NCBI GenBank assembly: GCA_031213475.1
Contig: JARUPZ010000018.1
Span: 7,948,406 to 8,012,405 of the forward strand
DNA from: Nereocystis luetkeana
Lineage: Eukaryota; Sar; Phaeophyceae; Laminariales; Laminariaceae
Direction of reading: 5' to 3'
DNA length: 64,000 nt
The position numbers and the translations under genes are program-made. The notes beneath the pieces were generated by a model that saw nothing but the letters and a program-made list of their open reading frames with translations, searched no databases and was not told where the DNA came from. Below are positions 14,706 to 44,210 of the stretch, one piece after another. Every line of letters begins with the position of its first letter. The stretch's first letter is position 1.

Positions 14706-17700
14706 ATGTCTGGTTCAGATGGCATGTCTAGTCACGAAACAAGCGTGGCCATGGAAGAGATGCTGAGGATGAAAGAGAAAATCGAGATCCTGGAGAAGAT
14801 GATGGAAGAGCAGAAGCTGGGCGCCGAGAGGAACGCGCCGCAAGAAGGAATGGAAGGGGGGGCCGGTGGGGGGGCGAGAGGAGAAGCAGCTGCGAGGGAA
14901 CCAGCAGCATCGACGGTGACGACACCTGGGCTGGGAGCCCGTCCAGGCATGTGACCAAACACTTCTTTATACCGCCCTAGTTTGTCCCAGTCGAGACCCC
15001 CCAAATTCGATAACATAGAAGCCCACTTTAGTATGTGGCGTAGCAAGTTCGAAGCGCACCTGTCATCCCTAGGGTGCCTTCATGTGTTAAGCACGTCAAC
15101 CCCTGTTATGGTTGGTGACGTGAGGGTGTCGGAAGAGGAGCTAGCATCGAGGCATTCTCCTCAGGAGGTTAGGGATGCCCGATTAGTTTATGGACTGATG
15201 ATGGAAGCAATGACTGGATACGCAATGGCTGAGTTCAGAATGCAGAAGGCAATGTCGCCAAGTGGTGCATGGAAGGAATTAGAAGATTACTACATGCCAA
15301 GGACAATAGCGGCCACCCATAGACTGAAGAGAGAGTTTACAACCATCAGAATCATCGAGGACGAAAACCCCGTGCTGTTCCTAGGGAGGGTGGATAAGGC
15401 AGCAGATGAGCTGGCCATGCTTGGCTGTGGGATGAGTGTGGAAGAGGTTAACCGACATATCGTGACGAACCTCTCGCCTCTATATATGATACAAAGCAAG
15501 TCCGTTCTTTCCCGCCCGTCCATCCCCCGTTCCGAGATCGATGAGATCATCCGCGATGCGTACGCAAACGATAAGGCAGATAAAGAAATGGTTTCCAAGG
15601 CGTTGGGTGTGCAGGGAGTGGGAAACCAGCATGCTTTGTACGCCGGAGGTGCGCAGCCTACCAGTGGTGGAGGTGCGGGTCCAGGAAGGGAAAGGAGGGA
15701 CAGGAGAGGCGGGAGGTACAAGGGTGGGCAGCAGCCGCAGCAGCAGCAGCAGTATCAGCAGCAGCAGCAGCAGCAGCAGTATCAACAGCAGCAGCAGTAT
15801 CAGCAGCAACCGCAGCAGCAGCGGCAGCAGCAGCAGCGACCCCAGCAGCAGCAGCAGTATCAGCAGCAACCGCAGCAGCAGCGGCAGCAGCAGCAGCGAC
15901 CCCAGCAGCAGCAGCAGTACCATCAACAGCAGCAGCAGCAGCAACAACCCCAGCAACAGCAGTACCAGCAGCAGCAGCATCGTCCCCGTCGGCATGATGG
16001 CAACCGGGGAGGAGCTTCGCCGGGGGGAATTACCGGCCCCAAATGGCGTTGGGATGCCGTGGCCTGCAGGTACCGTTGGGATAACTCCGGTCCCGACCCC
16101 TTCGGTGCGGGTGGGGCGGTCCCGCCCATGGGTTGGGTACCTACCGAGCCACCACCAGGGGCAATGCCCCCTATGCCCCCGCCGCCCGTAATGACTCCGG
16201 CGGGCTGGGGTTTCCCGCCGAACAACACGCAACCGAGGAGCAAGGGGGTCTGTTTTCGGTGTGGCAAACACGGCCACTACGCCGCAGCTTGCCCGGCAGC
16301 CGCCCCGCAGATGAACGTCGCAGTCCCGAGTACTGCTGCCCCTCCCCCTCAACAGATATACTACGGAGGTGGCTGGCAGCAGGAGACGCCCTACGGCAGT
16401 GGTGGGTATACCTCAGCCGGAGCTTTCCCGTCACAACAACCCTCCTCGAGCACTTTCCCTTCCCCTGGCCCAGCGAACAACGGCAACCCTACGCCTACGT
16501 TCGACCCGCACCTCCTCACCGCACAGTTTGCGCACCAAGGCAAGAGTATTTTTAGCGACGATTTGTTTTGGGCTAGTGGGAGGGAAGAGTGGGTGGCGGA
16601 TTCGGGAGCAACCTTTCACGTAACTGGAAACCCCTTTGGTATGGTAGGCTGTTACCCCCCTCCCCCCGGTAAGAGTAGTTTGGTCGTCGGTGACATGAGG
16701 TCACTGAAGGTCGAGTACTTCGGACAGATTCCGATGGTAATGCACAGCCCGCAGTGTGATGTCCAGGTTAGGCTTTTGGACGTAGCCTACGTGTCCGGTG
16801 TTCGGTTCAACCTGTTTTCACTTCACGCAGTAATGCTGAAATGCCCGGTGACTTTAGATTCCCAGGGAGCTCACTTGTTGGATGGGCAATTGTCCTTTAT
16901 GCGTAAGGACGCAGGTTCGTACGTAGACGCCACGCGGACTGTAGAGACCCCGATTGCTGCCGCTGTTTTGGCTCCCGGAAAAATGCGGAGGATTGATATT
17001 AACGACCTTCACGTTTCCCTTGCCCACTCCCATGCTGACACTCTCCGTGAGACGGCACGCCAGATGGGCATTAAGGTTTTTGGGGAGTTGGTTTCGTGTG
17101 CTGGATGTTCTGAGGCGAAGGGGAGGAGGATGGCGGTGCCATGGACGATCGAGTGCCGCTCCACCAGGCCTCTGGAACGTCTGTTCGTGGATCTGTCGGG
17201 ACAGCAGTCGACGTCTGCTGGCGGTGCGCAGTACATGATGATGATCGTCGACGACTACTCGCGACTGGGATGGCCGTATTTCTTGAAGCGGAAGTCCGAC
17301 GTCCCGAAGGTCTTCGCTGGTTTTCTGGCCGACATCAACGCCAAGGGTGTTCCGTCCATCGTGGAGTGCCTTCGCTCGGACAACGGCACCGAGTTCACCA
17401 AGGCGGAGTTCGTGGAGCTGCTCAACCACCACGGTATCCGCCGCGAGCACATGCCCGTCGATTCTCCGAAGCATGACGGCGTGGTCGAGCGGCGAATTGC
17501 GATGACGCTGGAGCTTGCAATGGCGTCCCGCCTGGAGGCCCCCCGCCTGTTCGGCGATGCAAGGATGCCGGCGACGCAGCCCCTTTGGGCTGAGTCCTGC
17601 GTGTACGCGAGCGACGTCATCAACATGACGGCAAGGGTGAGGGACAAGCCGGAAATGCACTCGCCGTACCGCACATTTTACGGGAGAGCCAGGTTTCCAC

Positions 17701-17715
17701 CACGTCAGGAGGAGC
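14706..17715 (+). pseudogene. copia gag, protease and integrase region
   Basis: From the ATG at 14706 a frame encodes a short coiled-coil-like N-terminus, meets a TGA at 14952-14954, and continues in the same frame. Next comes a copia-type gag domain (about 15000-15600). It is followed by a Gln-rich stretch, a CX2CX4HX4C zinc knuckle (CFRCGKHGHYAAAC, about 16255), an aspartic protease site (ADSGATFH, about 16600) and an integrase. The integrase has an HH-CC region (CAGCSEAK) and catalytic blocks FVDLSG, RSDNGTEF and HDGVVERR. About 17695-17715 the frame shifts; the original frame runs on to a stop at 17780 in nonsense sequence. The TGA may be a CGA to TGA change. Readthrough is possible but less likely given the other lesions. 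Confidence 0.85.
15722..15991 (+). repeat. Gln-coding CAG-rich repeat in gag
   Basis: A run of CAG/CAA codons interrupted by Tyr, Pro and Arg. A 60-bp unit encoding QQQQYQQQPQQQRQQQQRP-type sequence is present twice in tandem (about 15796-15915). It lies between the gag domain and the zinc knuckle and encodes a long polyglutamine linker. Confidence 0.9.
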
Positions 17716-20193
17716 TTGAAGACCGAGCCGAAGGCGGAGGTTTGTTTCTACCTCAACGGCGGCAACCACCACGCAGCTGACTGCAGCAAGATTCTGCTGG
17801 CATCTGGCCGGAGGTCGTTCTCCCGCGACGTCACTTGGGAGCACCCGAGGAAGCCGTTCGTGGGGTTACTGCCTTCGGAGGAGGAGAGCTCCCCGCCGCC
17901 GCCGTTGCCGTCACCACCGCCCCCGGGTACGCCGGAGCCTCTGAGAGGCCCTGACGTATGGCCCGAATTACCGTCCCCATCCCCACTGCTGCCGCCGCTA
18001 CCGCCGTCATCACCGCCGCTACCGCCGCCGCCGCCGCCGTCGCCGTCGCCACCGCCCCCGCCGTCACCGTCGCCGTCGCTGCCGCCGTCATCGTCACCGC
18101 CGCCGCCACTGCCACCGTCACCGCCACCGCCGTCGCCACCGCCGCCGCCGCCGCCGTCGCCGTCGCCGCCGAGATCATCGCCGTCGCCGCCGCAGCAGTC
18201 ATCGCAGCCACAGCTTTCGCAGCGTGCTGCTCGGGAACTGGGTTCTTATATCCCGGACCCGGAGGATGGCGACGTACTGAGGGGGCGGACCAGGGGGGAG
18301 ACTGCACGACACCAGGAAGGTGGCGGCGGTGTGCAGGGTGGTCGGACAGTGGGGGAAGCTGGACGACACCCGGAGGAAGGGGACGTACTGAGGGGGCGGA
18401 CAAGGGGGGAGACTGCACGGCACCAGGAGGGTGGCGGCGGTGTACAGGGTGGTCGGACAGTGGGGGAAGCTGGACGACACCCGGAGGAAGGGGACGTTCT
18501 GAGGGGGCGGACAAGAGGGGAGACCGCGCGGAACCGCGAGGCTATGGGGCATGGGCTGCTATCGCTGATGGCAGCACGGGAAGGTATAGGCCATGTACTT
18601 TTCCACCAAGCCCCACCGCGCGAGAATCCTCCCCTTCCCACGCGCCCGGCAAGCGAGCTTTCGACGCCGAACTCGTATGCTGAAGCGTGTGTGGACGAGT
18701 ATTCGACGATCTGGAGGCAGGCGGTGGACAAGGAATATCATGGACTGGCGGACGCGGGGACGTTTGGAGCGACGTAGCAACCAGAGGGGCTCAACGTCAT
18801 CTCGGCGAAGTGGGTGTTCGCCTGGAAGTCCAACGAGCATGGTGATGTGGTGCGGGCGAAAGCAAGGCTGGTGGCACGAGGTTTCAAGCAGCGTGAGGGT
18901 ATTGATTTCTTTGAGACTTTTGCTCCGACCCCTGCAGCGTCTTGTTTCCGTTTGCTGGGTGCCGTTGCGTGCGAGTTGGGTCTGGATTTGTGTCATTTTG
19001 ATGCTGAGCAAGCGTTCGTGCAGTCGAGTTTGGATGAGGATGTTTTCATGCGACTGCCCCCTGGCTGCGGCGAAATGTCCGGTAAGGTAGTCAGGTTGAA
19101 CCGCAGTCTCTATGGCTTGAAGCAAGCGTCGAGGTCGTGGCACAACCACCTTCTCACTCACATGAAGAGTCTAGGCTTTGAGCAGAGCCCCGCTGACGCG
19201 TGTGTCATGAGGTTGGTCGAGTCGGGCTCTGTCTCCATAGTAACAGTGGTTCATGTGGATGATATTTTTGCTGTAGGGCGCAAGGCTAGGTGCGATCAGT
19301 TCTGTGAAGACCTGAACAGCCTTGTTCCGATCAACAATCTGGGCGAGTTGCGGTGGTATGCTGGTTGTTGTTTTTCGAGGGATTGGGATGCTGGTACTTT
19401 GACGATTTCGCAGCAGGCGTTCGCTGAAAGGACCGCGGCGAGGTTTGGTGTTAGTTCCGGGAGGAATAATCCGCTTTCGACTGGTGTGAAGCTCGAAGAG
19501 TTCGACGAGAATGAACCCGTGGGTGATTGGCCTTTCCGCGAGTTGGTGGGGTGCTTGATGTGGCTTGCGAACCAAACACGACCGGATATTGCGAACACGG
19601 TGAGGGCGGTAGCGAGGTACACGAATAGGCCGAGGGAAGTACACTGGGAGACAGTGGTCGGTATTTTAGAGTATGTTTTTTCTACGAGTGATTTCGGCAT
19701 TACGTTTCAGAAGGGTAGCGGGCTTGAACTGGTAGCGTTTGCGGATGCGGACTACGCCAACAAAGCCACTGACAGGAGGTCAGTTTCAGGTGGGGCTATC
19801 ATGTGTGCTGGGGCGTGTGTGTGCTGGTTTTCTAGGACGCAGAAATGCGTTACGCTCTCGACCACTGAGGCCGAATATGTAGCACTAGCAGACACTATCA
19901 AGGAGGCGATGTTCTTGCGCTAAGTTTGGAGTTTCATTTTTCCGGGGTTCGGGGAGCGATGCATTACGGTTTTCGAGGATAACGAGGGGGCAAGGCACCT
20001 GGCACAAAACCCAGTGTGCACGTCGAATTCTAAGCACATCGATGTTCGACACCACTTTTTGCGAGAGCTTATTTCCAAGGGGGAGTTTGTTATTACCCAT
20101 GTAGAGTCGGAGGAGCAGCGCGCAGACTTCTTAACAAAGCCGCTCAACAACATGGTTTTTCGTTACCACCGGGATTTTCTGATGAACCTTTGA
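17716..20193 (+). pseudogene. copia RT and RNase H region
   Basis: In the new frame the integrase C-terminus is followed by about 100 residues of almost pure Pro/Ser, then a 37-residue tandem repeat, then a TAG (18775-18777). After the stop the same frame encodes a copia reverse transcriptase (GLNVISAKWVFAWK, ARLVARGF, SLYGLKQASRSWH). The catalytic motif reads HVDD (about 19252-19263) where YVDD is usual. RNase H follows (FADADYA, STTEAEYVAL), is interrupted by TAA at 19921-19923, and continues with SKHIDVRHHFLRE and FLTKPL to a stop at 20191-20193. The stops read as CAG to TAG and CAA to TAA changes. The enzyme is inactive as written unless the stops are sequencing errors. Confidence 0.85.
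18259..18535 (+). repeat. 111-bp coding tandem repeat
   Basis: Two full units and part of a third, starting at about 18259, 18370 and 18481, each encoding 37 residues (DVLRGRTRGETAR, GGGVQGGRTVGEAGRHPEE). The exact 111-bp spacing keeps the frame. It lies between the proline-rich linker and RT. Confidence 0.9.
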
Positions 20194-21554: not shown

Positions 21555-22157
21555 AGACATAATCAACTCCCACAGCGCTCGATCAGGGCCCAGGCACGGC
21601 GGTCAACGCCTCGCACCCTTCTAATCCATCTTAAACACTACCATGGGTCGACGGGAGTTTGGTGTCAGCACGGCACGGCAACCTTCTGGCGGACGCGTGC
21701 TACGCTAGGGATACGCACGTAGCACCCTAATGTTTATGGGGTTATTCACTTCAAGAGCTCCGTGTAACCACCGAAAACTGACTACGCATAGAGAAAATAG
21801 TGCAGACTTATGGCCGTTCTCATCGGAGAGCTTTCCCCCCATAATATTCATATTTTTTTCGCGCATTTTTTTAATGTTCCAAATTTTTCCTGATTTTCTT
21901 TTTTTAAAATATGCGAAATTTGAGTTTCCTGACATTGTTGATTTTAAAGGATGTAAAAAATTGTGACAGAACGCCTCCGTATCTTGATATATATTTTCAA
22001 AATTTCCAACCATACTTTGGAATTTCAAGGGAAAAATTGCCCCCCCACAAGAAAGGCCCTTCACCCGATGAAAAATCCCATGGCCTAGGTGCTTAAGAAT
22101 AGTAATGCGCAGAGAAAATGGGATACATACCGGGTCGTATCTCAGTCGAGGAACTCT
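21555..22157. other. AT-rich spacer between the two LTR elements
   Basis: No coding signal. Long T-rich runs lie around 21830-21920. Confidence 0.5.
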
Positions 22158-22434
22158 TGTTATGATACTGCTTTGTATGAGGTTGAAAGCCCGGTAATTA
22201 CCTGGGTTCTGGCGCTGGGATCGTATTTGTAGTACTTGGAAGGCGTATCTTAGGTGGAAAACCCAGGGGTTTTCCAGAGAGGCACGAGCGTGGCCCCAGT
22301 CTCCGTCGTGCACGAAAGGAATGAAGTGGCTCTTCTATCTCTAAGCGAACATCAACGTGAGTACCAACGAGTGCCGGCTTAATAGGCAGATCTGTCCAGG
22401 GATACAAAGGGTCCCGCTCTCCGTGATCTTAACA
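22158..22434 (+). repeat. gypsy 5' LTR
   Basis: 277 bp; TGTTA at the start and TAACA at the end form short inverted termini. It matches 34134-34409. Confidence 0.95.
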
Positions 22435-22436
22435 AG

Positions 22437-22454
22437 TGGCGTCGACGGCAGGCT
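22437..22454 (+). other. primer-binding site candidate
   Basis: TGGCGTCGACGGCAGGCT begins two bases after the LTR. TGG is the complement of a tRNA CCA end. The tRNA cannot be named without the host tRNA set. Confidence 0.55.
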
Positions 22455-22666
22455 CCCCAAGCGCTCGTAGTGCTCGATGAGTGGCTCGCCATGCCCTCAT
22501 CACCGCTAGACAAGTTGCTGAAGCACGAGCCGTGGATACTGCCACCGCAGCTCCTTCGTTACACGACCCTGAGATCCGCCGAATGCCGCCCCCCCCGGCC
22601 CCGGTGTCCCCCCCTGCCCCGGTGCCCTCCCCTGCCCCGATGTGTTTCGCCTGCCCCTGACTCAGC

Positions 22667-25600
22667 ATGCCACGGACACCAAAGGCGAAGGAGGAGTCCC
22701 CCAGCCCCTCCAGGTCTGCCAGCGGCCTGAGGACTTACGGCTCCTCTCCCTCGTCGGGAGAGCGGACACCCCAGCGTCCGGGCCGGACGGATTTGGACGA
22801 CGCTGTGTACTACGAGGCCCGCAGTTCCGAGGACAAAGAGCGGACGGCGATACAAGACGCCGCAAGGGAGACAGCGCTGGACGGGGATCAAGCCCCGCCC
22901 CCCCAACTACCAGAGGCCTGGACCTCCCTCTCGGTCGAGGCTCAGGCGGCCCTCATCCGGCGCTGGTCGGACGTCCCGGACCTCGGCGGGGGAACCACGG
23001 CCCAATGCTCGACCCCAGCTCGGGCCGATGCTGCCGCAGCCGAGTGGCCTCTTGCTGCAGCCGACGGTCACCCCGATGTCGCGGCGGCAGAACGGGCCTT
23101 GACAGCCGCCGAGACCCTCCGAGCGACCTCGGCGAAAACCGCCCGCCGCCGGGCGCAGGCGCTCACGGAGGCCGAGACTGTGGCATCAGCGGCCGCTCGC
23201 ACCGCCGCCGACGCTAGCACTGATTCGGAGGCCGCAAACAACTCTTCGAAGGAGGCCGCCGTGGCCTCGGAGGACGCCGCACGCTCCGCCTCCCGCGCCC
23301 AGGCCTCCATATCCCGCGCCAGGGAAGCTCTGCGGGCGGCGCGGGCGGACAGCAGCACGAAGCCCCGTCGTGTTGCCGAGACGAGACGCTCAGGGGAGCG
23401 CCTTCCCCTCGCCGAGACCGCGACAACCGCCACTCCAGCCCCCGGTTTTGACTCTTCCGCCACGCTCCCTCCTAGCGCCATCGCGGTCGACGCCCGGATC
23501 AAGCGTACCGGGGATCTGGATTTCTTCCAGGGGAGTGTCGCCTGCATGGCCGCTGCCACAAATTCATGCTTCCCCTTAGAGGCGGCTTCGAAGGTGGTCT
23601 CTGCCGCTCGCGAGCTCCGACTTGACATGCCCGAGGACGACCTCTCCGTCCACGACGCTTGGCTGGTCATGGCGGGTGACAGCTGGAAGGCCCAGCAACG
23701 CCGGGAGCACACCATGGCCCTCGTGAAAAGCCTGCGGCAGGCGCACGATTTGTGCTCCGCCACCGTTTTTTGGCCGACCCCGACGGAGTATGGGCGCCAC
23801 TGCAAGCGCCGGGCGGACCTCGGCGCCCAGGGACAACGGCTCCCGGACGTCGGACAGGGCTCGGGTCAGGCCCACGCCCCCTCCAACCCCCTCTCGGACG
23901 ACAGGACTCACCGGCCCCCGGGGCACCAACACCTGGGAGTCCCCGACAACTCGGGGGCCCGTGACCACCCCTACCGCTGCGATGACGCCCGGGACCGCTG
24001 GCGTCCAAGCACGGGGGGAGCCTCGACAGGCCAAGACGGCAAGGCCCGCCGCGGACAGGGTTCAGACCATGGCAGGAGCACATTCCGGCGAAACGGGGCT
24101 GGTCGGCGGCGGAACCGGGGCCAGGGGGAGGACAGCTCGAGCGACGGGCGAAATTGGAGCTACCGCCCGCAGGGAGACGCGTCTCAGGCCAACTCTTCGA
24201 GGTCCTCCACGGACGGCGGCGGCGAAAGCCCCGTTCCCGAAGTCACCACCGGCTCCAAGAGGCAAGTGGTTCCCTCGCTGGCGGAAGTTGCTTCCTCCGC
24301 CGCGCTTCTTGGTCGCCTGACCATGTCCGAGGACCGCGCCATGCCCGTGTCGTCTAACCTTGCCCACGCTCGCACGGCGGCGATCGACGCCGCCGCCGCC
24401 GCCGCCGCGAAAAAGCACACCGCAGACGTCGAACGGGCGTACAAACACCTGGGACTGAAGGATATTTCACGCATTTCTGTTCTACCTTTTCCCTCCTCGA
24501 TCAACCCTTCTGACGCCGCGCAGCAACTAACTCGTTCGGTTAAGGCCTCCACGTCTGATATTCTCATGATGTGCAACGATGGCAGCCACGAAGGCCTCAG
24601 TTCTACCGATTGGATCCCCGGTTGGGAGTACCCCCTCAAGAAATCCTTCGCGCGCGCCATCGCACCTGACAGGCCCACGACCGCCCCCCTCACTACCTTG
24701 ATGGATGATTGTTTTGGGCAGGTGTCGCGCGCCCTCGCAGCTGGATCGACGGGACCGGAAGCGTTCACGCTCCTCCTGAGGCTGCTGAGCAACCACTTCG
24801 ATCGCACCGACACGGGGGCCAGCTACACCAAGTTGCATAATTTGGCGTACCTAACGGGACCCCCTTTTGCGATTTTAGCCGTGCTTTTCGTGGAGTGGTG
24901 TCGGCAGCGACGGGGACTGAGCGTGTTTTGGCTCCGGGGGCGGAGGTTGTTTTGGAGGTTTTTCGGATGGCAGTGAACGAACAGTTCCCCAGCTTGATGC
25001 CCACGCTGTACCCGGGAGTTTTGGCTACCGTGTCGAGGCCGTTTGGTAATTTGGACGCCATGTGGCTGGCTTTTGAGACTCTCGCGAATAATAAGACACC
25101 TGCCATCAACGGCGAAAAATATTTTTCTTTGCCTGCTTCTTCGACGAGTGTGCGGTCATCCACCCCGTCGGGGCCCCGGCCCGCCGGTAATGGTCGCGGC
25201 CAGGGCCGGACGCTTCCCCAGTCGCCTGTTTGGCAGACGGGGTCGCGCAATAATCCGCTTGTGATTAACGTCCACAAATCCATCCCTGACTGCCTCGACC
25301 CGTGGCTTGACACCGCTTCCAACTGCTGGCCCCTAGAAGAACACCACTATGCTGAAGTTCACGCTGTTTGCATGTCCATCCAGACCGAGGACCCCCCTCT
25401 CTGGAGCGGTCTACTTTCATCGTCCGCCCGCGCGGCCGCCCTCAGCGAAAACCGAGGCCGCTGTTTGAACTGCCACGAAGACTCACACTCCCTCAGACAG
25501 TGTAGGCATCCCTTTCAAAACCTCAGCGGTATTCTCAATCCCGACCTCGGAACTCTCGGCGACGACGGCGCGGCGTTTCGTCGTTGGCAAGAACGCATGA

Positions 25601-25899
25601 CCCGACACCGCCGCGAAAATAACTCACGGCCGAACAGGAACAACCACAAGAAAAACAGGCGACGTTCAGACCATTCGAGTGGACAGCATCACGGCCAGGG
25701 CCACAGACAAGGTGACGGCTACAACACACACGCGGAGCGAGGGCACCAACATTCTAACTCCGGCCACCACGGTGGTGGTTGGACCAACTCTGCCTCTTCC
25801 ACCGCGGCTCCCGCTTCGGGGGTTCGCTACGGTGCCTCGCATAATTCGGACGGTAACCCCAACGGACGCCATCCGGGCACCTTCCGCGCCGGTAACTGA
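22667..25899 (+). pseudogene. gypsy gag region
   Basis: From the ATG at 22667 a frame runs to 24976, but the meaningful reading moves to another frame at a C5T4 run (about 24859-24868), where a GTPFxDFxRAFR-like block straddles the shift. It then continues to a TGA at 25897-25899. The first part is Ala-rich and probably helical (about 23030-23370), followed by a Gly/Arg/Ser-rich basic stretch (about 23800-24220) and a capsid-like helical part. A CX2CX4HX4C zinc knuckle (CLNCHEDSHSLRQC, about 25464) and a basic tail rich in Arg, His and Asn follow, typical of nucleocapsid. The TGA may be the natural end of gag, because the same frame stays open beyond it. Confidence 0.75.
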
Positions 25900-26817
25900 C
25901 AGGTCGACGGCGGTTCGGCTCCTCCTGCCCGCCCGCCGCCAGCATTGCCGGGAGAAAATACATTGATTTCACAAGATACACGCGTCCCAGGCTCGCTCAG
26001 CACTCAGCGTCGTCCAGCGCCGCCCCCCTCCCGCACGTTGCTCCGTACTTCGGACCGACGCAGCGACTATGCTCCACCGGTTCTACCGGGGAGTCCCCGG
26101 GCGTCTTCGCCGACGTCGGGAGCCCGCGCCTCGAACGCCGCTCCCCTCACCCTGGGCACGAGAGCAGGCGAGATACACGCCCCTCTCCCGAACCACGCAC
26201 CGCACGGCACCACGCGTGTCGCGCCGTCGCGTCGTTCTTTTCAGCGAGAGTATCCCCTTCTTTCACCTCCCGGCCATGCGGTGGCGGTCGGTTTGAGGTG
26301 CGGGAAGGCAAACACCAAAACCCCGAGATCTCGGTTGAAGCTCGACTCGGCGTCTCCTCGCAATAACGGTGGCCGCCCAATCCTTTTTCCTATTAAGGAA
26401 GAGTCGACAAGATTAGCTACCTCGTCCTCCTTCCCCACCAGGTCTACAGGACGAAAGCCCTCTCCGGTGGACCCTTTGTTGCCCCCCACCGAAGCACCGT
26501 TCTTGAAGTCGTCTACAGGGTCTGCAGGCCCTCTTTCGTATTCGCGCACGCCACTCCACGTGCGCTGCGCTCCTTCGGCTCCTGTGGAACAGGCAAAAAC
26601 TGGTACTGCCCGTCGAGCCAGTGGTGACTCCGCAGCCTCCGGTCAGATCAACCGGACAGCATACCCGTTAAATTCGGAAGAATCGCAGCTCTCGTCAAGA
26701 AGAACGGGCTCAGAGCCCCCTGCCCCCTTTGGTCCAGGACAGGGATCATCGGGCGCAGTAAGAGAACCTTCTGGCGATTTTTTGCCCTCGGGCAATGGTG
26801 ACACTGAGCCAGTATAA
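25900..26817 (+). pseudogene. gag-pol linker
   Basis: The frame after the gag stop encodes about 300 residues rich in Pro, Ser, Arg and Thr without a recognisable domain, ending at TAA 26815-26817. The following NADAR-protease frame is the same frame, so the TAA is either a point change in one long gag-pol frame or a true boundary. Confidence 0.5.
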
Positions 26818-28842
26818 GTGGAGCCGGACTCGCCTCGTGCACCAGGGGCTCAGTGTTCTCAGAGAAGCACACTTCCCCAAACACACACCGCAACGGCGGC
26901 CACCGACGACTCGACACCTTCGGTCTTTGACCCTACTCTCGAGAATTCAGCGAAGCGGGCGGTACTTTTCGGGCAACCCCCCTCCTATTTTTCGCAGTGG
27001 TCCCTCTCGTTTTTTGTCATTGACGAGGTGACATATTCCTGCGCGGAGCAGTACATGATGGCTGAAAAGGCTCACCTTTTTCTGGACCACGACACAGCCG
27101 AGCGGATTATGGTCTCGCCAGACCCTCGCGAACAGAAACGCCTCGGTCGAGGCGTGCGCAACTTCGACTGCGCTACTTGGGACCGCGTTCGGGAAGACGC
27201 CGTCCTTGCTGGTTCCTTTGCCAAATTCACGCAGAACCCGGTCATGAAGCAGCACCTATTGAGCACTGGCAACAAAATTTTGGCTGAAGCCAGCCCTTTT
27301 GACTCCGTGTGGGGCATTGGTCTCCGGGCAGATGACCCCGAGGCTCAAGACCCCTCTCGGTGGCGTGGCAAACATTTGCTCGGGAAAGCTCTTTCCACCG
27401 TTCGCGACACCCTCCGCTCAAGTGAGGCCGGGTTGGTACCCCCCGCCTCTTCTCATCAATTTTGCACTCCAACCACGACTGACAGAATACATGAGATTTC
27501 TCCAGCGCCGCCTGGCCCTTTGGCCGTGGCCCGCGCTTGCCTAGGTCCTCCCTTGGAGTTTTCGACCTATTTTTCTGAAGCGCCGGCTGATCATAGCCCC
27601 GAGGTTTTGGCTGTCGCACCTAGTGTCGACCCCTCCCTCGCGCTGCCAGAACACGGCCCCTGCCTCGTCGAGGGCACCATTACCCTCGACGACGCCTCTT
27701 TTACAACCAAAATCGCGATCCACAGCGGAGCTGGCGTTCTTGCCCCTTTTGGCTGCGTGGCGCTTCTTGACACTGGCTCCCCACAGACCTTCATTCGGCA
27801 AGATGTTTTGGATCTCATGCTCACGGTTGGTGCCGCGTCCACCGCGTGCGAGGAGAAATGCGCCCCTCGTTCCTGGGGGGGTTTTGGCGAATCAACCCCT
27901 CTAAAGACATCGACGAGAGTGCGCCTGAGCGATCAATTTTTTCGAGAAAATGAGCCTACGTGCTCCCTCGCAGTTTGGGCCTGCGTGGTTCCCCCCTCAG
28001 TGATGCAGCATGCAGTACTGCTGGGACGTGACAGCTGGATGCGTTTTAATAGCCGCTCCTACCGCTCTCGCCCACCCCGGCCGTCAGACAGTCGCGTTTT
28101 TGGCGAGTTGGAGTTGCTTCACCACACCCCGACAGGCACGTCCGTGTACGCCATCGACCCCGCCGCTTCGGGTGGAGGCTTTTATCTCCGCTACGAGGGC
28201 GCGGCGGGCGTCACCCTGTCTGACGATCCTCAACTCCTTGTGGTTAATTTGGTTCGAAGCGATGGCTCCCCGGCACTCACTGGGCACTACTTGGTCGACA
28301 TGATACCTCAGTCCGACCTGCCCTCGGCTGAGCAGCACTTCGTCGCCTCCGGGCGACAGGTTCTTCCCCTCGTTGGCGTGGCGGCCCTCGAGCCTGGAGA
28401 TATCCTCGGCGTCGCCCACGCCCCACCGCTGAGCGTTCCACTGGGCGTTTTGCATCAGGACAACCGAGCCCCCAGCCCTCCGTCAGGACTATCTGAGGTG
28501 GCTCCGGTCTCGCCAGTTTCAACTTCCCCCCTAGCAGCTCCGAGCTCTCCTTCGCCTGCACTGCTTGAGCGTTTGAGCCTAGAACAGCGCGTTTCGTTCC
28601 TGGGCGTCTGGGCACGTTTGCCGCCGCATCTGCGGGAGGTGGCTTTTGACCTTCACGGCACGGACTGGACCCCTGAGACCATCGAACAACTGGGAGATGT
28701 TCTCTGCGATTTTCCGGACGTATTCTCAAAGTCCAAATCTGATTTTGGTTCCTGCTCGTTGATGCCTTTCGTGGTTTCGGTCCCGGAAGGAAGCCCTCCT
28801 GTCACGTCCAGGCCGCACCGCATCAACCCCATCCTGGCCTAG
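26818..28842 (+). pseudogene. NADAR domain fused to retroviral-type aspartic protease
   Basis: This continuous 674-codon frame lies between gag and RT. Residues about 48-200 (26959-27417) show the whole NADAR (YbiA/DUF1768) signature in order: YFSQWSLSFF, YSCAEQYMMAEKA, RLGRGVRNFD, KFTQNP, LLSTGNKILAEASP, D..WGIGL, WRGKHLLGKAL..VR. Known NADAR proteins act on ADP-ribose compounds; some remove ADP-ribose from guanine bases. A retropepsin follows, with active site LLDTGSPQTF (Asp codon at 27769) and the C-terminal block LLGRDSW. A conserved-looking spacer (about 28150-28440) and a pre-RT segment come next. A TAG at 28840-28842 ends the frame just before RT, which continues in the same frame. 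The NADAR part has no stop or shift. Confidence 0.85.
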
Positions 28843-29650
28843 GAAGTGGAGGCCACCTTGGATCAGTATCTACCGGCGGGTCTGATCCAGCACTCGACCT
28901 CTCCGTACTCGAGCCCGCTGGTGGTCATCCCGAAGAAATCAGGAGGCGTTCGGATCACAGTGAACTACAAGAAACTCAACCAGATCAGCAACCTCAGCCA
29001 GCTGCATATTCCTCGCGTGGATCAAGTTCTCATCTCCCTGGGGAAGGGACGGGTGTTTTCTCTCTTCGATTTGGTCTCCTCGTTCCACCAAATTACGGCG
29101 CACAAAGACATCGTCCCCCTCACGGCATTTTGCACTCCTACGGGGCTCTACGAGTGGCTCGTCATGCCCCAAGGCAGCAGTGCTTGGCCCGGCTGGTTCG
29201 TCAAAGTTAATAACGAAGTCATCAAAGGCCTGGCACAGGTGGCGGCCTACCTCGATGATGTGATCGTTTTCGACTCTGATCCGACGGCCCACGTCAAGAC
29301 GATACGGGCCCTTTTCGAACGCCTGCGCAAACACAACCTCAAGCTCTCCCCCTCGAAGGCTCGCCTCGGCGCCACGGGCGCTAATTTTCTGGGCCACTCC
29401 ATTTCGCCCGCGGGTATACGCCCCAATGCGGAAAAAGTTTCGGCTTTGTTGAAAATGCCCATGCCCAAGAACCTCAAGCAGGTCCGAGCATTGATGGGCG
29501 GCGTGGGGTATTATTGCAAATTCCTGCCCGACCTGTCTAAAAGGATCCGGCCTCTCACTGCCCTCCTCCGGAAGGGGGTTAAGTACGCCTTTACGCCGGC
29601 CATGGAAGTTATCGTTCGCCAGATCCTCGCCGAGCTCGCTGCCCCACCAT
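28843..29650 (+). pseudogene. gypsy reverse transcriptase
   Basis: It starts directly after the TAG at 28840. Blocks in order: YSSPLVVIPKKSGGVRI, FSLFDLVSSFHQI (first catalytic Asp), YEWLVMPQGSSAWP, and AAYLDDVIVF (catalytic Asp pair at about 29254-29259). Thumb blocks HNLKLSPSKARL, FLGHSISPAGI and VRALMGGVGYYCKFL then follow. All three catalytic aspartates are present. The frame shifts by one base near 29645-29655, at the RT/RNase H boundary. Confidence 0.85.
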
Positions 29651-31400
29651 TTTGGTCTTCCCGGACTGGGACGCTGTAGCCGACGGCTCCCGCCCCTTTC
29701 GCGTGTACTGTGACGCCTGCATCGACGGTTTTGGTGCCGCGCTTGAACAAGAACAACTGGACGGCTCGGTACGGCCCATTGCGTATATCAGCCGCGCTAC
29801 TCTCGATTCCGAGAGACACTGGGCCCCGTTGGACCTCGAAGCGGGCAGCATTGTCTGGGCTATCAAGCGACTCCGCGGCTACCTATGGGGGACAAAGTTT
29901 CGCATCTTTTCGGATCACAAGGCACTTGAGAGCATCGGCAAAGTAGGGGATCACAACGCGCGAGTTCAGCGGTGGCTCGAGTTCCTCACAGCGTTCGACT
30001 ACACCCTCGAGTACCGCAAGGGCACCGCCAACGGCAATGCTGATTTTCTCTCTCGCTTGCCAGAGCCAGCCACGGAACACGACCGCAGTGGGTCTAGCAG
30101 CCTCACACCCGTAGAGGACGGGGGTATCTTCCTCATCCAGGCCTGCGGGCTTCGCACTCGCTCTTCCCCGACCCCCGGTGTCGGCTTGGGTGGGCTGGTG
30201 CCCCGCATCGAACGTGCCGTCTTGGGTGGGCTGCCTTTCACCTCTTCGGATTTTCGCGATTTTCGCACACACGGGCCACGAATGAGGATTGACGACCTCT
30301 CTGCTCCTTCGGGGAGATTCGTCGCTCGTGCCTCTGCTTCCGTCGCCACCGTCGATCGCCGTCCTGGCTTGCGGGTTTTTTCACCTGCCGCCAACACCGC
30401 TTTCGCTTCGGTTTTCGTCGTACCCTCCGGGGGCAACCAGGGCTCTGCAGAAGCCCCCGCTGCAGCGACGATTGTCGCCCAGCACGCTCCTCCCCCGACG
30501 AGCACTTTACAGGGCGAAGATTCCGCCGTGAGCACTGCTCCGGCCGCGTCAGCCCCTTCAGGCCAGGGCAATGCAGAAGCCCCCGCTGCAGCGACGATTG
30601 TCGCCCAGCGCGCTCCTCCCCCGACGAGCACTTTACAGGGAGAAGATTCCGCCGGGAGCACTGCTCCGGCCGCATCTGCCCCTCCAGACCAGGGCAATGC
30701 AAAAGCCCCCGCTGCAGCGACGATTGTCGCCCAGCACGCTCCTCCCCCGACGAGCACTTTACAGGGCGAAGATTCCGCCGTGAGCACTGCTCCGGCCGCG
30801 TCAGTCCCTTCAGGCCAGGGCAATGCAGAAGCCCCCGCTGCAGCGACGATTGTCGCCCAGCACGCTCCTCCCCCGACTAGCAATATTCAGGGAGAAGATT
30901 CCGCTGTGATTATTGACCCGGCCGCGTTTACCCCATCGCCGCCTGGCACCCCGGCGCCCCCGAAGGTTTTGCCGTCTTCCGGCCGCATCTCCACTCGGAC
31001 GCGCCGACGAACGGCCGCCGCCGCTGGCTCCGCGCCGCCTGCTGTTGATTATGGCTTCGGGCCCGGCGGGGCCCCTAGACCATCCGCCCGGCGTGCTATC
31101 ACCCCGCCGCGAGCCCCACGACCGCGACCGACCGCGCCAGTCGTTTTGACCCCGGCTCCTGCCGCTTCGTTGGTCCCGACGGTACCCACCCCGTCCGACC
31201 GCGACCGCGCCGAGCCCGTGGGAACCCCTCTTTTACGGCTTCGGCTGCCAACTGACGCACCGCCCGTCCCCACGAATGACTTCGACGCTCTCGGCGCAGC
31301 TGCCGGCTTTCAATTTGGTGATTCTGCAGCGCGCTATTCGCACACCGCTTGGGCACGGGAAGAACAGGCCGAGCCCGCGTGCAACGCCGCCATGCGCTAG
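29650..31400 (+). pseudogene. gypsy RNase H and long linker
   Basis: The new frame opens with LVFPDWDAVADG and an RNase H with its acidic residues in place (YCDACIDGFGA, PLDLEAGSIVWA, IFSDHKALE) and a terminal ADFLSRLP at about 30060. About 440 residues of Pro/Ala/Ser-rich linker follow, including a four-unit tandem repeat, before a TAG at 31398-31400. The frame stays the same after the stop and leads into the integrase. Confidence 0.85.
30447..30950 (+). repeat. 126-bp coding tandem repeat, four units
   Basis: Units start at 30447, 30573, 30699 and 30825, each 126 bp, encoding a 42-residue repeat (AEAPAAATIVAQHAPPPTS, LQGEDSA). The frame is preserved. The first three units are nearly identical and the fourth has diverged at its end. 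Confidence 0.95.
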
Positions 31401-32625
31401 ATAGCCCTTGGCCGGCCTGAAATTTTGCCAGCCGACTTTTGGTCGTGTTTCCCTTCCCACCAGCGCCCTCCTTTTTCGGAGGTTCAGGAGCTGGCTACCA
31501 AAGCCCGTTTACACACTACCGACGCGGGCATCGTTCTACTCGTCCGGCAGCCGCCCCCCCCCCCTGCGTCAGGCACGCAACGCCCGGTGGGTCGTGCGGC
31601 CTGTTTATCGAATGACGAGCCTATCCGCATTTATGTGCCGCTCCTCATGCGCCCTTGGGTCATGCAGGCTTGCCATTCCACGGCTTCCTGCCACCTAGGA
31701 ACAGCGCGCACCCTACGTATGCTCGAACGTTTCTACTGACTGGTGGATCGGTATGAGCATCTGCACCCGGTGGTTGTTACGCCACTGCTTGAAGTGCCAG
31801 GCACGGAAACCGTCGCGGCAGACGGTCCGGTGGCCCATCACCACATTGCCCTTGCCAGAAGGACCCAGCATCGCCGTCAGCATTGGCTATTTCGGCCCCC
31901 TCCCTGTGACGCCTCGAGGAAATACGTACATCTTGCTTTTCACTGATCGTTTCAGCCGCCGAGCCGACATGTACGCCGTCACTGCGGCAGAGTTCACCGC
32001 TGAGGGCACGGCTAACATTCCTCTCTGGGGGTGCCTGCGCAGCATCCTCTCGGACAACGGCCTCCAATTCTGCTCCAAGCTTTCGCACGCCGTATATCAG
32101 CTTCTCGGGGTTCGAAAAATTGCCACCAGCTCCTACCACCCAAACGGCAACGGCGGGGTGGAACGTGTCAACCACACGATGGCCCAGATGCTGGCAATGG
32201 TCGTCAACGAGCTCCAGAACAACTGGGATGAACAGCTCCCTCATGTCGAATTTGCGTACAACAATTCGGTCAGTGCCGCCACGGGCTTGGCTCCCAACGA
32301 GGTACATAGGGATCGGCTGCCACGCCTCCCCCTCACGATTTTCGAGCGTGCTGGCGTCGCCGGCCACCAAAGCTTGGCCCGCGACCACCTCGCCTATTGC
32401 GACTTGGCGATGGACCGCCAGCAGCGCGCGTATGATATCGTTCGCGAACACCACGCCCTCACTGTTGCCCGTGTGAACCGCCGCAACTCCGCCTTCGCCG
32501 ACGCTCTGTGTCCGGTCCCCAGGTTTGACGTCGGCGGCTGGGCGTGGGTGTACAATACGGCGGCCACCATCCGCCAGGGGGCAAAACCCGACACGGGCGC
32601 CAAGGTCCTCAAGGCCAAACTCTGA
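31401..32625 (+). pseudogene. gypsy integrase
   Basis: The N-terminal HH-CC zinc domain is visible (ACHSTASCHLG, then HCLKCQARK). It is split by a 4-bp tandem duplication of ACTG (31735-31738, 31739-31742) that creates a TGA and shifts the frame. The core then reads in the shifted frame with FTDRF, LSDNGLQF and YHPNGNGGVERVN, the D, D and E of the catalytic triad, and YNNSVSAATGLAPNEV. A TGA at 32623-32625 and a further shift near 32662-32668 (C5 run) separate it from the tail. Confidence 0.85.
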
Positions 32626-33520
32626 CTCAACTGGACAGGCCCCTACAAAGTTCTCGCAGTTGGCCCCCTCCGCAGCGGACACCCCGGACGGGTCTCCTCT
32701 TGGGGCCAAGCTCCTGTATGTGGATCTCCCCTCCGACATGCCCGGCGCGGATGCCCGTCGGCGCGTTTCAGTTCAACGCTGCAAGCCCTGTGCCAACCCC
32801 CACGACCGTGGCGACATGTCGAAGTATTTGCCGGCGGGGTTGACACAGTACGTGCTCAACAACTTCTCCAAGAAATCTCCCCCGTACCACGTCACCCAGG
32901 ACGACGTCTCGACACCTCTTCACCGACTCGAAGTGGAAAAGGTTACCGGACACCAATCGGTTCGAGGTCGAGGTGGCGTCATCGCAGTGATGTACGAGAC
33001 GCACTGGACTGGACTCTCCCGTCGATCCTGGGAACGGAAAATGGACCTTCAGCTTTCTCGCCAAGCAATTTTGCGCTACTGGGCCGGCACCCCGAACCAG
33101 CATCGTCAAACCAACCGCCTGTACCGCCGAATGAGAATCGGCGCGGCACAACGGGAGCTCTCTCGGAATAACGGCCAGCGGTTTCTGGCATCCGGCTATG
33201 GCTGCGTCTCGCACGCCGACTGGCTCCGCCGATACTGCAACACCGTGCTTCCCAACGGGGCCCATTTTTGGTGCAAGGGCGACGACGGGCTGTGGTGGCT
33301 CGGGAAAATCAGCGCGACTACGCCCACGGATGGAGTATATTTAGTTCGATTCTTGGATGACCCGGGACCGATCAAGCTTCCTCTTTCTCCGGCGCGCTAC
33401 ACGACTTCGACGAGAGCTGTACGTGGCTCTTGGTGTCTCCAAATTCACTTGGCTAGCGCATTTGCACGGGGGGTCCAGCGTAACGTAGACGAATCTCGAG
33501 GCGCCGCCGTGGATAGCTGA
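32626..33520 (+). pseudogene. integrase tail with chromodomain-like and Tudor-like domains
   Basis: The reading frame settles at about 32668 and runs to 33520. After an integrase C-terminal segment (LNWTGPYKV, RVSVQRCKPC) comes a chromodomain-like stretch at about 32925-33090. It has LEVEKVTGHQ, VMYETHWTGL, SWERKMDL and ILRYW, with aromatic positions in the places expected for a methyl-lysine cage. Further on, about 33260-33410, WCKGDDGLWWLGKI followed by YLVRFLDDPGPIKL resembles a Tudor or related Royal-family barrel. Chromodomain tails of chromovirus integrases direct insertion to modified chromatin. The second domain is my inference from pattern only. Confidence 0.65.
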
Positions 33521-34133
33521 TTTTCGCTTCTTGGCTGTGCTCGATTTTTTTTTCTTGACGTTTTCCTGGATTTGGGCGGTGGTCTTTCTCCTTGTTGACG
33601 TCTTCCGACTTTTCGGGTCGAATTTTTCTTCTGGCAGGTGTGTTCCTGGGTTGTTTGTTTGAGTGTTTTCTTGGGTTTGACTAGGGATGTTTTTCGCGTG
33701 TTTTGTCCTGCCTACCCCCCCCGCTCAGTGTTGGGGCTGGTTTGGGTAATCGTGCCACTCACTGTGTGTGGCACAGGACCCGTTTCCCGAGTAGTAGGCT
33801 GGGTTTTCGATGTCTCTTGATATCTTCCTTGATATTTTTCTTCTCGTCTTTTTTTTTTTAATGTTCCCTTTTCACTTTCCTTGCATCTTCCTCGCCCCCC
33901 CCCGTCGCGGGTGACATGGCGATGGTTTTTTGTTGACGATTTCTTCCTGCCCCTTGAGGCTACGCTTCCTTTCATTCTTTTTTACGTACTTTGCCGGCTT
34001 CGTTGCCTTGCCGTTCAGAGGTGTGGGAGAGGGTTTTGAGGAGCCGCATCTTCGACTCATGTTCTAGTTGTGGAATCGGGGTTTCCATGAATTTCCCATA
34101 ATTCTGCATATACGGCTCATCAGAGTGGGCTAG
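33521..34133 (+). other. gypsy 3' untranslated region
   Basis: T- and G-rich, no coding signal. A purine-biased segment just before the 3' LTR (CAGAGTGGGC) is the best polypurine-tract candidate but is weak. Confidence 0.6.
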
Positions 34134-34409
34134 TGTTATGATACTGCTTTGTATGAGGTTGAAAGCTCGGTAATTACCTGGGTTCTGGCACTGGGATCGT
34201 ATTTGTAGTACTTGGAGGGCGTATCTTAGGTGGAAAACCAGGGGTTTTCCAGAGAGGCACGAGCGTGGCCCCAGTCTCCGTCGTGCACGAGAGGAATAAA
34301 GTGGCTCTTCTATCTCTAAGCGAACATCAACGTGAGTACCAACGATTGCCGGCTTAATAGGCAGACCTGTCCAGGGATACAAAGTGTCCCGCTCTCCATG
34401 ATCTTAACA
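34134..34409 (+). repeat. gypsy 3' LTR
   Basis: 276 bp, same ends as the 5' LTR, one base shorter in an A/C run. It is followed by CTCT. Confidence 0.95.
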
Positions 34410-35618
34410 CTCTGTCCCAGTGACAAGTCTCACAGTGGGCCAAAATGTGCTACGGCTGTCGTAGAGCGAGTCGTCCGAAAATCGATGAAAAAATCTCAGG
34501 CGTGCCCACCGAGGTTTGGAAAATCTCTTCTTGCGGTCTTGTTTAATTTTCTCGTCAGGAGGGCAATGGGCGACCGGTCTCCGCCGGCAAAGCGACAGTG
34601 GTGACTGCGGCTGGAGAGGTGGGAAATTGAAGTCGCTGGACCCGGGCGAGTAGTGCACGGTGCGGCTGAGGGCGCACGTGTTTCACGATACAGACTACGA
34701 GAAAATTCTCACGCACTGCCCCAGCGCGTTCATCGCGGTTCGGCAGGACGACTGTGCTTAGGGCCCATCTTAGCGGGGGCTTTTTTTTTTTTCAATGTTT
34801 TTTTTTTTTTTTTTCTTATTTAATTTGCATCTGATTGGCCGAAGAGTGAACGACCAAGCGGGCAAATAAGAAAAAATTAATTTGAGTGAAACGTCTTTTG
34901 GGATTTTTTTCGTGTGATTTTTTTAATTTCAATTTCGAATTTGGCAATTCCTCGGTCTTGACGTAGCATGTTCATGGTGGGTCAACACCCTCGGTGGAGT
35001 CTGGGGCGATTCTTCGACGCTTCGGTGACCACGATCGAGGCGATAAAATGCGAACCTCAACGAGAGGTGACCGAAACAATAGCCGCGCCCACGCCCACAC
35101 ACCATAGAACATCGTACCTCGGCGGTGGCGCATCAAAAGTAATCATGGCGGCCGCAATCCCAATTTTTCGGCCGGCTCGATCGGCCAACAATCACGAAAA
35201 CCAAGCAAACAAGCATAAAAACGGAGGATACGCTCGAGACCTCGATAGCTGCATCACCGTTGCTGTTCCGCACGTGGCGCTTGAGGGCTTCCTCCGCCCA
35301 CCCAAGACACCCTGAGAGTGATAGCTTCCTATCCTGTGCGACCAGAAAGAAAAAGAGGCTGGAGGCGGCGCGCACGCGGCAGCGCAAACCATCGCCCTCG
35401 TCTACGCGCGTCCTTTTTTGTCGGCTGGGCGTTGGTGACGCGGTGCGTTTTTTCCGAAGTCTTCTTTGATTGACAACTAGTACGCTGTTCCCCGATAGGA
35501 CACAAACACGTTATTTTTTCGAAATCGAATTAAATTCATTGAAACTAAATTTTCACTTTCAAGTAGCGTTCCCCGTTAAGAAGGGCCCTTACAGAGGTAG
35601 CTACCTGCGTGCCGGCGC
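34410..35618. other. mostly gene-free stretch
   Basis: About 34659-34760 gives a coherent plus-strand peptide (HVFHDTDYEKILTHCPSAF) ending in TAG, possibly a terminal exon of an unknown gene. T-rich runs lie at 34782-34815. No domain was recognised. Confidence 0.35.
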
Positions 35619-42099: not shown

Positions 42100-43261
42100 T
42101 CACTTCTGCCTAGTCAAATCTAAGAGTGAGTTAACCCGCCCCCACCCTGTGCCCTGGCCCGGCTGAATCCCACCGCTAATTCCTTCCTGGGCCATCACGT
42201 CGGCTACCCAACTGGCATCCTTTCCATGACTGCGAACATACGTCTTGTACGCATCGGACGCCCATCGGCCCTCACGCTGCAACACCTCTGGTGTTGCCCC
42301 CCCCGCCGACAAGTGAGTTTCGCCTCCAATCCTCAGAGAGTGCAAAGCGTACTCCTCCGCCCGCCCGCCCGCCAACGCAACCACTTTTCGCAGAGCTGCC
42401 GTCGCTTGCTGCTGTGCCCACATGGACCATCTGCCATTACCAACACCAAAAGCGGCAAGTGGGGCCGACGAGGGAAGAAACAAATAGCAAGACATCAATT
42501 CGACCATAAATGACAGCACCGCCACCGTCGCCCACGCGCAACGCCGGACCACAACGTACGCGCGTCAAAACCGCCCCTTTCTGCAGTTGGTCCCCTTTCG
42601 ACCCACGAAACCTAACCTCAACGCGGTCTGCAGCAGACCACTGCGACGCGGTAAGCTGGATATTCTCGCGAAAAAACGCTACATCGGCCCGTCGCAAGCA
42701 ATAAGTTTCATGCACACGCGACCGAGTTTCCGCAAACATTTCTGACGCGCGAGTCAAAAAACAAAAGGAAGCGCAGAGGGCAAGCCACAAGACACGACCC
42801 CCCGTCTGCCATGTGGAGATCAATTTTTCGCCCGCGATCAACATTTCCCACGAAACAGGCCGACGAACGGTTGCTTGGTTACCAGCGTCGGCATGCGAAC
42901 GAGCGGCTCCTTTGAGGGCATTACCCAAAACAGGATGGGTAGTGTCCAGTTCGAACCCTCGTGAAATTCGATGGAAAAACTTGATCGCTGACAAATGGCT
43001 CTCGATAGTTGCCGACCGCAATTTCTTAGTGGCAAAGGCGTACGCTACGTACTCGAACAAATGCCACACGTTAGTCATGCTGTCTCCGCCACGCTCTAGG
43101 AATACAGGCATGTCACAACGTACCCGAAAGTCTACCCATGCGCCAAAATGCCCCTGATAAGTGCGTTCAGACGAGGTCGCAATGGCGTTTCGCATGAGTT
43201 CGAGGCCAACACCGAAGAACAGAGGGATGTGCCCGCACCCCCCAGGTCCTGCTCCTGCCAC
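42100..43261 (-). pseudogene. tyrosine recombinase
   Basis: Two minus-strand frames make one recombinase. 43261-42437 carries the N-terminal SAM-like part (SERTYQGHFGAWVDF, SATIESHLSAIKFFHR) and the first catalytic Arg (CFLTRASEM). 42552-42100 carries the second Arg with its His (HSLRIGGETHLSAGG), the GRW block and the Tyr region (AYKTYVRSH). A one-base shift near 42525-42535, in a GC-rich run, separates them. The enzyme would integrate a circular cDNA without target duplication. Its start overlaps the end of the RNase H frame by about 130 bases, as is common in DIRS elements. Confidence 0.85.
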
Positions 43262-44210
43262 GGAATGTCGGGTCGAATAGCACGCAAATTAACGAGGACG
43301 GAGGCACAATCCCACCGTGAGATACCATCAGCGGCCACGTTAAAAATTCCACGTACGTGTTTTGCGTCAAAGTGCCAACCAGAGGACAACTCGAGCACCC
43401 CGAGGAGACGCATTAATGCGCCAGATCTCGGCTCCTTTCCCCCTCGACAACGCCGCACCCACTCGACGGCTGCTTCGTTGTCGCCACGTAACAACACACA
43501 GTCCCCCATGGCGAACGGACGTTCATCACACGCAGATACGAGAACCCATGCAGAAACTACCATGCCCAGCAATTCTAGAACGTTAATCGATATATCGTTC
43601 TCATCTGCAACGGACTTACTCGATCCACAAAATCGAGACCGCTCTCCTGCGTCAAGCTCGTATCGCCAATACACCCCAGTTTCCAAGCAAAAACCCCTGA
43701 CAGCGGTTTTAGATGCGTCCGAAAAAAGAGTACGTCTAGGGGGGCGCTCAAGCAAATTATACATCGGAGCCGACAAGGTTTCTCCTCGCGCGTCCCACCC
43801 TTCCTCAACGAACCACCGCCAGAACTCGAGGTCACCATGGAACTCGGGTCCCAGGGCGAGACGCCGCCCGGGGTTTGCCATACGGCAATCAAAATTAGCT
43901 CCGGCGGCAATGCGCGGCATACCAACTGAAGCTAACAAGCGGTTAACGAAAAAACGCCCCGGACGTACAGCAAAGGAAACATGCATGAGAAAGCCAACGA
44001 GCTGCGACACCTGCTTCGCAGAAGCAGATGCACGATACGAGGGCCACTCCTTGAGGATATTGTGCAGCTTGAGGCGCTTATGGGGCGGCAACGTGACCGT
44101 AAGCGCCTCAGTATCAATGATCCATCCCAAAACTTCCAGTTGCGTGTCCCAATTAGTAATTTTCTTGGCTGACAGGAGGGGCGGATCGGAAACACCACGT
44201 TCGCTTGACA
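43132..44210 (-). pseudogene. RT thumb and RNase H of the recombinase element
   Basis: The frame open from 44313 to 43132 becomes meaningful near 44200: SDPPLLSAKKITNWDTQLEV and LGWIIDTE follow directly from the RT fingers/palm. RNase H follows (TLFSDASKTAVRG, INVLELLGMVVSAW, LLRGDNEAAVEW, HVRGIFNVAADGISR) with its acidic residues present. It is separated from the upstream RT frame by a 16-bp tandem duplication (44192-44207, repeated from 44208). Confidence 0.85.

Follow-up and report, generated by a model that had tools for sequence, protein, structure and literature searches.

A Ty3/gypsy retrotransposon occupies positions 22158-34409 of a 64,000-nucleotide stretch of the Nereocystis luetkeana genome (contig JARUPZ010000018.1), referred to below as the window. 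The polyprotein (Pol) of this element begins with a NADAR domain; the fusion is real, and in the lineage to which the element belongs it looks functional. The original prediction, made from the letters alone, had described a 12-kb element with matching long terminal repeats (LTRs) and a NADAR domain lying in frame before a DTG protease, and this description holds, as do the position and reading frame that it gave for the domain. According to its LTR ends and target-site duplication, the element is 12,252 bp long, and all its features described here lie on the plus strand. The 5' LTR (22158..22434, 277 bp, TG...CA ends) was delimited by blastn of the two ends together with a repeat search, and the 3' LTR (34134..34409, 276 bp) by blastn. 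The two repeats, both with TG...CA termini, are identical in 267 of 277 columns (96%, blastn), which corresponds to a Jukes-Cantor distance of 0.033 calculated from 9 mismatches in 276 positions. The duplicated target site, CTCT, is found at 22154..22157 on the left and at 34410..34413 on the right.

The central open reading frame (ORF) of the element, at 26818..28842, encodes 674 aa from stop to stop. It contains a NADAR domain (PF08719) with a YbiA-family fold at 26977..27417, identified by Pfam, structural modeling and alignment, and a DTGS motif at 27769..27780 in the same open frame. We take this motif to be the signature of an aspartic protease; the Pfam matches of the ORF include no protease family, and the protease is presumed from the motif and from its conserved position before the reverse transcriptase (RT). 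The profile search gave a highly significant NADAR match at residues 54-200 (E 4.5e-48, 164 bits against a cut-off of 35.1), spanning profile positions 9-163 of 163. Moreover, an AlphaFold2 model of the 172-aa NADAR segment, built with 58 homologues, reached a mean predicted local distance difference test (pLDDT) score of 93.3. When this model was compared with PDB structures, only two entries were retrieved at E values up to 1e-3: the NADAR of Phytophthora nicotianae in complex with ADP-ribose (8bau; E 6.7e-12, TMq 0.79, 31% identical in the structure alignment) and E. coli YbiA (2b3w; E 2.7e-8, TMq 0.75, 25% identical). The profile E-value, the predicted fold and the existence of homologues with the same arrangement together exclude a chance match.

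The YbiA family is defined, according to passages of PMC11125620 and PMC11543638, by a catalytic glutamate and lysine seven residues apart and by a glutamate, rather than aspartate or histidine, in the last strand. Residues named in PMC11543638 were mapped onto the window through a sequence alignment to 8bau and through spacing. The window NADAR has E77, K84, K107, R111, W121, E157, D162 and W165. The catalytic pair, a glutamate and a lysine without which guanine-linked ADP-ribose is not hydrolyzed, corresponds to E77 and K84, which are seven residues apart, and the family-specific glutamate to E157, placed by spacing. Ligand contacts of 8bau map, also by spacing, from K75/R79 to K107/R111, from W89 to W121 and from D130/W133 to D162/W165. 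Judged by these residues, the domain is a member of the YbiA family and not a NADAR antitoxin of the DarT1-associated (BC4488) type, a candidate which was rejected because the distinguishing glutamate E157 is kept in place of the catalytic aspartate. No ADP-ribosyltransferase family was detected in the eight element ORFs scanned (Pfam, E 0.1).

The active site is also retained among relatives. In 41 non-redundant element copies, counting at each site only the copies that are not gapped there, the window residue is present at E77 in 24/24, K84 in 31/32, K107 in 32/33, R111 in 31/33, F116 in 33/35, W121 in 35/36, E157 in 36/37, D162 in 35/39 and W165 in 39/40. The mean majority frequency of these nine columns is 0.96, compared with 0.755 across the domain; when nine columns were drawn at random 20,000 times, one draw reached as high a value. 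Identity along the polyprotein was measured in 30 proteins that span both domains by profile, ten of which are in the protease-search list described below; many are close kin and thus dependent. Expressed as identical residues divided by the length of the window's region, mean identity to the window is 0.53 for NADAR and 0.45 for the protease core, against 0.285 for the linker. NADAR is more similar than the protease core in 25 of the 30, equal to two decimals in three and less similar in one (P0062); P0055, whose protease part is unaligned and was scored as zero, gives no value. Residues 481-674, past the protease core, are lacking in many of the proteins; those in which this stretch is nearly complete show 0.44-0.51 identity there. 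By this comparison, NADAR is as constrained as neighboring parts of Pol and not uniquely so. The alignments show constraint on the domain at the protein level.

A further line of evidence is the coupling of NADAR to the protease. A search with residues 280-674 only (the protease-to-RT stretch), in which the 7,997 candidates with most shared words were scored, gave 68 proteins. A complete or partial NADAR is present in all 28 relatives that have 150 or more upstream residues and in 36 of the 37 that have 100 or more; the sole exception, the Undaria gene model P0285, has 107 upstream residues, too few for NADAR plus linker. When all searches are pooled and the window is included, 82 of 114 protease-bearing proteins have NADAR, in a set biased by the recruitment of part of it through NADAR itself, and the 32 without it have no more than 107 upstream residues. 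The distance from NADAR to protease is 78-88 residues in 79 of the 82, 120 in two and negative in one, and the same arrangement occurs in many proteins on separate contigs. The idea that a host exon was inserted by chance into a single element, or that the fusion is an artefact of assembly, is ruled out by these counts and by the published Ectocarpus lineage discussed below, leaving it next to no probability. Nothing was found in its favor; stand-alone brown-algal NADAR genes (P0140, P0141, P0143 and P0164) do exist, and the proteins that speak against it include the annotated Ectocarpus proteins P0007, P0030 and P0046, which bear NADAR together with RT. The counts also answer the refutation that the original prediction had allowed for, in which other copies would lack the segment or the domain would be a chance host exon.

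Around the NADAR-protease ORF, the element shows the domain order protease-RT-RNase H-integrase typical of Ty3/gypsy, with the protease recognized from the DTGS motif only and the integrase scoring below the Pfam cut-off. A long open frame of 771 aa in the gag position (22661..24976) gave no Pfam match at E 0.1. It is followed in the ORF list by a gag-like frame (24841..25899), in which we recognized by eye a CCHC motif (25462-25503) that is presumably a zinc knuckle; no zinc-knuckle family was matched by Pfam in this frame. A proline-rich open frame (25900..26817) then leads up to the NADAR ORF. Downstream of it lie the RT (28843..29679; PF00078, E 3.3e-25, with YLDD at 29248), a segment containing RNase H and then a repetitive linker (29583..31400; PF17917, E 5e-30), the integrase core (31699..32625; PF00665, E 4e-4, the value below the cut-off; 73% identical to the integrase of Ectocarpus P0007 over 274 columns) and a C-terminal domain (33206..33511) that is 56% identical to Ectocarpus P0046. 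Within the linker that separates RNase H from integrase, positions 30310-31060 hold a direct repeat with 126-bp spacing in five in-register copies. One of the five is the 247-nt reference; two others are 92-93% like it and the two outer ones 61-65%, and the repeat encodes a 42-aa unit rich in alanine and proline.

The copy in the window is a decayed member of its lineage, a point that goes beyond the original prediction. An in-frame stop at 26815-26817 directly precedes the NADAR-protease ORF and another, at 28840-28842, separates it from RT; the gag-like and the proline-rich frames are likewise parted by an in-frame stop, and RNase H is not read in the frame of RT. The near relative P0008, which among the protein matches listed aligns to 58% of the query at 88% identity, has no stop at the position of 26815-26817 and is open across the upstream edge of the NADAR ORF. 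Because of the stops between frames and the break between RT and RNase H, this copy is probably not autonomous, whatever NADAR does in its relatives.

The kinship of the NADAR domain was studied in two trees, for which protein matches were the best 120 of 139 in one NADAR search and the best 120 of 2,591 in another. The main tree comprises 92 rows and 148 columns, after removal of near-duplicates and of rows with fewer than 122 aligned residues; its bootstrap had not settled and many forks are open. The second is a quick tree of 148 rows. Element rows include P0007 and P0030, which have NADAR and RT, do not figure among the protease-bearing proteins and also stand for the collapsed P0046, as well as nine rows assigned by clustering in the quick tree and having no protease match (P0005, P0006, P0013, P0031, P0122, P0126, P0127, P0129 and P0138), with P0005 as the one whose upstream part was likewise compared by eye. 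Host rows are P0140 and P0141 from Ectocarpus, P0143 from Pylaiella, P0164 from Scytosiphon and the EukProt protein P0137, placed here by similarity.

In the main tree, a single group with support of 92/86, which is below the star threshold, contains every one of the five stand-alone host rows and 20 of the 21 rows from elements. Next to join it (86/94) are a bacterial row from Polyangia (L028), a transcript from a protist and P0062, an element protein. The quick tree likewise unites the kin of the window with the host rows and the majority of the element rows (87), placing P0062 and the Nannocystis rows elsewhere and making a mixed set of 47 rows the sister of the element and algal group. Approximately unbiased (AU) tests did not reject a single element clade including the outlying P0062 (p 0.34), nor elements and host genes as one clade (p 0.39); a tree that keeps the elements together and leaves the host genes out is worse by 9.87 log-likelihood units and was not rejected either (p-AU 0.29, with P0062 set aside). 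These sequence comparisons favor, without proving it, a common origin of the NADARs of elements and algal genes. P0062 itself (738 aa, from a JGI contig) has its NADAR outside the main element group and a protease region 48% like that of the window, and may represent either a second NADAR capture or a long branch. Among the other rows of the main tree, four from molluscs and lancelet form their own clade (98/95), and P0001 from Haliotis rufescens (682 aa) shows three tandem NADAR-like repeats by eye.

The stand-alone brown-algal proteins and P0137 are 54-59% identical to the window NADAR among the matches listed and group with element NADARs, but they lie outside polyproteins, and four of the five have an N-terminal motif rich in cysteine and histidine, recognized by eye, which P0137 lacks. 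The two that were scanned, P0140 and P0143, gave no Pfam match for this motif; it is possible that the motif serves as a zinc module in an ADP-ribosyl hydrolase of the host. In principle, an ADP-ribosylation eraser could have passed between this gypsy lineage and the algae that host it, the stand-alone brown-algal gene being either domesticated from the lineage or the source of the NADAR in it. We regard such an exchange as doubtful; if it took place, brown algae would have an undiscovered pathway of nucleic-acid ADP-ribosylation that restricts retroelements.

Bacterial orphan NADARs, from Nannocystis, a Polyangia metagenome-assembled genome and many other phyla, give the best prokaryotic E-values and 55-56% identity among the best 80 of at least 585 matches. 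Unlike the element domains they are stand-alone genes, and in the 148-row tree the Nannocystis rows are not adjacent to the element group; in the 92-row tree, bacterial rows were collapsed at 66% identity. In nine of the 37 ORFs listed around four of these loci (L028-L031), Pfam at E 1e-3 found no ADP-ribosyltransferase. A bacterial origin is suggested in PMC12477816, where blastp matches were almost exclusively bacterial once Ectocarpus had been excluded; the stand-alone genes of Pylaiella and Scytosiphon are close kin additional to those hits. Since the two trees place the bacterial rows differently, a bacterial donor is no more than a candidate. An origin from viruses was considered as well. 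A scan of IMG/VR gave 27 NADAR loci with 40-56% identity, all short stop-to-stop frames of 142-233 aa. Fifteen of them are represented in the 92-row tree, the others being too short or near-copies, and none of the 15 falls into the element group. Among the rows of this tree, the source closest to the element NADARs is therefore not viral.

As to function, the Pol of this gypsy lineage starts with a YbiA-family NADAR domain, and in intact copies the domain would be made as a part of Pol and hence carried into the virus-like particle. There, the likeliest of the roles considered is that of an N-glycosidase, which would take ADP-ribose off guanine, or off a similar base, in the RNA or cDNA of the element or in a restriction target. 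While reverse transcription proceeds, it would thereby counter ADP-ribosylation damage or an ADP-ribosylating activity of the host. We hold this reading tentatively, with a probability of about 0.4, on the grounds of the kept catalytic residues and of the biochemistry of YbiA/NADAR relatives; packaging, substrate and benefit are what we infer by analogy. Members of several NADAR subfamilies, including the YbiA family, hydrolyze guanine-linked ADP-ribose in vitro (PMC11543638, PMC11125620). In addition, the NADARs of eukaryotic RNA viruses, which are embedded in polyproteins, are argued in PMC9503650 to target host macromolecular ADP-ribosylation. The original prediction had suggested that the element might clear ADP-ribose from its own nucleic acid or counter an ADP-ribosylating host defense; the same residues and the same in vitro activity make this plausible, and the role itself stays as conditional as it was then.

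Several observations weigh against the eraser role. The Phytophthora ADP-ribose contacts Y84 and D86 correspond, by offset, to F116 and C118 in the window, and the R93 position, which is R125 in the window, is cysteine in 53 of 73 element rows; the substrate preference may therefore differ. We know of no ADP-ribosyltransferase targeting such elements, although no search for one was made. A binding module would be expected to keep binding-site residues as well. The copy in the window has stops and frame breaks, many of the 30 proteins compared are not independent, and a scan of viral contigs with the protease region, intended to provide element DNA for dN/dS, found no relative. Finally, activity of NADARs in vitro does not predict protection in cells, as stressed in PMC11125620.

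Two other functions have to be weighed on the same evidence. The domain may act on small ADP-ribose derivatives or on NAD-linked RNA ends, for instance in RNA processing or in clearing an ADP-ribose signal, and not on guanine-linked ADP-ribose. Many viral NADARs are argued to process soluble ADP-ribose derivatives or to serve RNA repair (PMC9503650), and processing of RNA intermediates is suggested in PMC12477816; the hydrolysis of guanine-linked ADP-ribose by YbiA-family members, cited above, argues against such a restriction, and we consider this alternative rather unlikely. Alternatively, NADAR could be kept as a binding or structural module, that is, as a reader of ADP-ribose or nucleic acid or as an aid to Pol assembly, with catalysis dispensable. 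An architectural role would fit the near-fixed linker to the protease, and conserved pocket residues serve binding too. On the other hand, the catalytic residues E77, K84 and E157 rank with the best-conserved columns, though ligand binding could explain that as well, and overall a purely non-catalytic function seems unlikely to us.

Accessory enzymes fixed in a polyprotein are uncommon in retrotransposons and point to host processes that the element has to withstand. A domain that erases ADP-ribosylation of nucleic acids and has kept its active site would point to the presence of such a modification in stramenopile algae, where, to our knowledge and with no search made, none has been described.

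Remains of other mobile elements are also present in the window. Positions 14955-19923 contain a degraded Ty1/copia element in which gag, a zinc knuckle and the integrase core share one frame and RVT_2 (E 2e-43) occupies another (Pfam); its gag has a long glutamine-rich run, and GCC-type repeats occur near 18005. On the minus strand, 42100-47168 holds overlapping long frames that resemble a DIRS/Ngaro-type element by eye, with tyrosine recombinase-like and RT/RNase H-like ORFs; the four ORFs scanned there gave no Pfam match above the cut-off. A scan of the window with Rfam at gathering thresholds gave no match.

The kind of element described here is not new. The original prediction was unsure whether NADAR domains borne by retroelements had been reported; a NADAR at the N terminus of Pol is described for one Ectocarpus Gypsy lineage, e.g., Gypsy-12_Ec32, by Dinatale et al. 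2025 (PMC12477816). What the present analysis adds is the conservation of the active site, the consistent coupling to the protease and the kinship with stand-alone brown-algal NADARs; the fusion itself is published, and its constraint and relation to host genes now allow a sharper test. Compared with the Ectocarpus NADAR+RT proteins P0007, P0030 and P0046, the window is 59-71% identical in RT, 68-79% in RNase H and 52-56% in NADAR. Its integrase is 73-79% identical to those of Ectocarpus NADAR elements, apart from a 94-column piece of P0046 with only 35%. A fourth Ectocarpus protein, P0293, whose model is without NADAR, has 53% identity in RT. The closest matches listed are ENA contigs, which align to part of the NADAR domain at 83-88% identity and to RT at 86%. 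The C-terminal domain at 33206-33511 is Tudor/chromo-like by eye and gave no Pfam match above the cut-off, chromodomain included; its position matches that of a chromatin-reader domain reported C-terminally in Ectocarpus Gypsy Pol (PMC12477816).

Because RT, integrase and the C-terminal domain are mostly 56-79% identical, with one short piece at 35%, the element very probably belongs to the NADAR-bearing Gypsy lineage of Ectocarpus. It differs in that it forms a separate family, with only 52-56% identity in NADAR, and in that the window copy is decayed; the comparison was made through P0007, P0030 and P0046. NADARs within a retrotransposon protein are also reported in PMC12477816 from ORF1 of Tx1 long interspersed nuclear elements in Crassostrea gigas; those elements are non-LTR and their domains divergent, perhaps the result of an independent capture. 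The P. nicotianae NADAR and E. coli YbiA share the fold and the active-site residues of the window domain but are cellular proteins outside any retroelement polyprotein.
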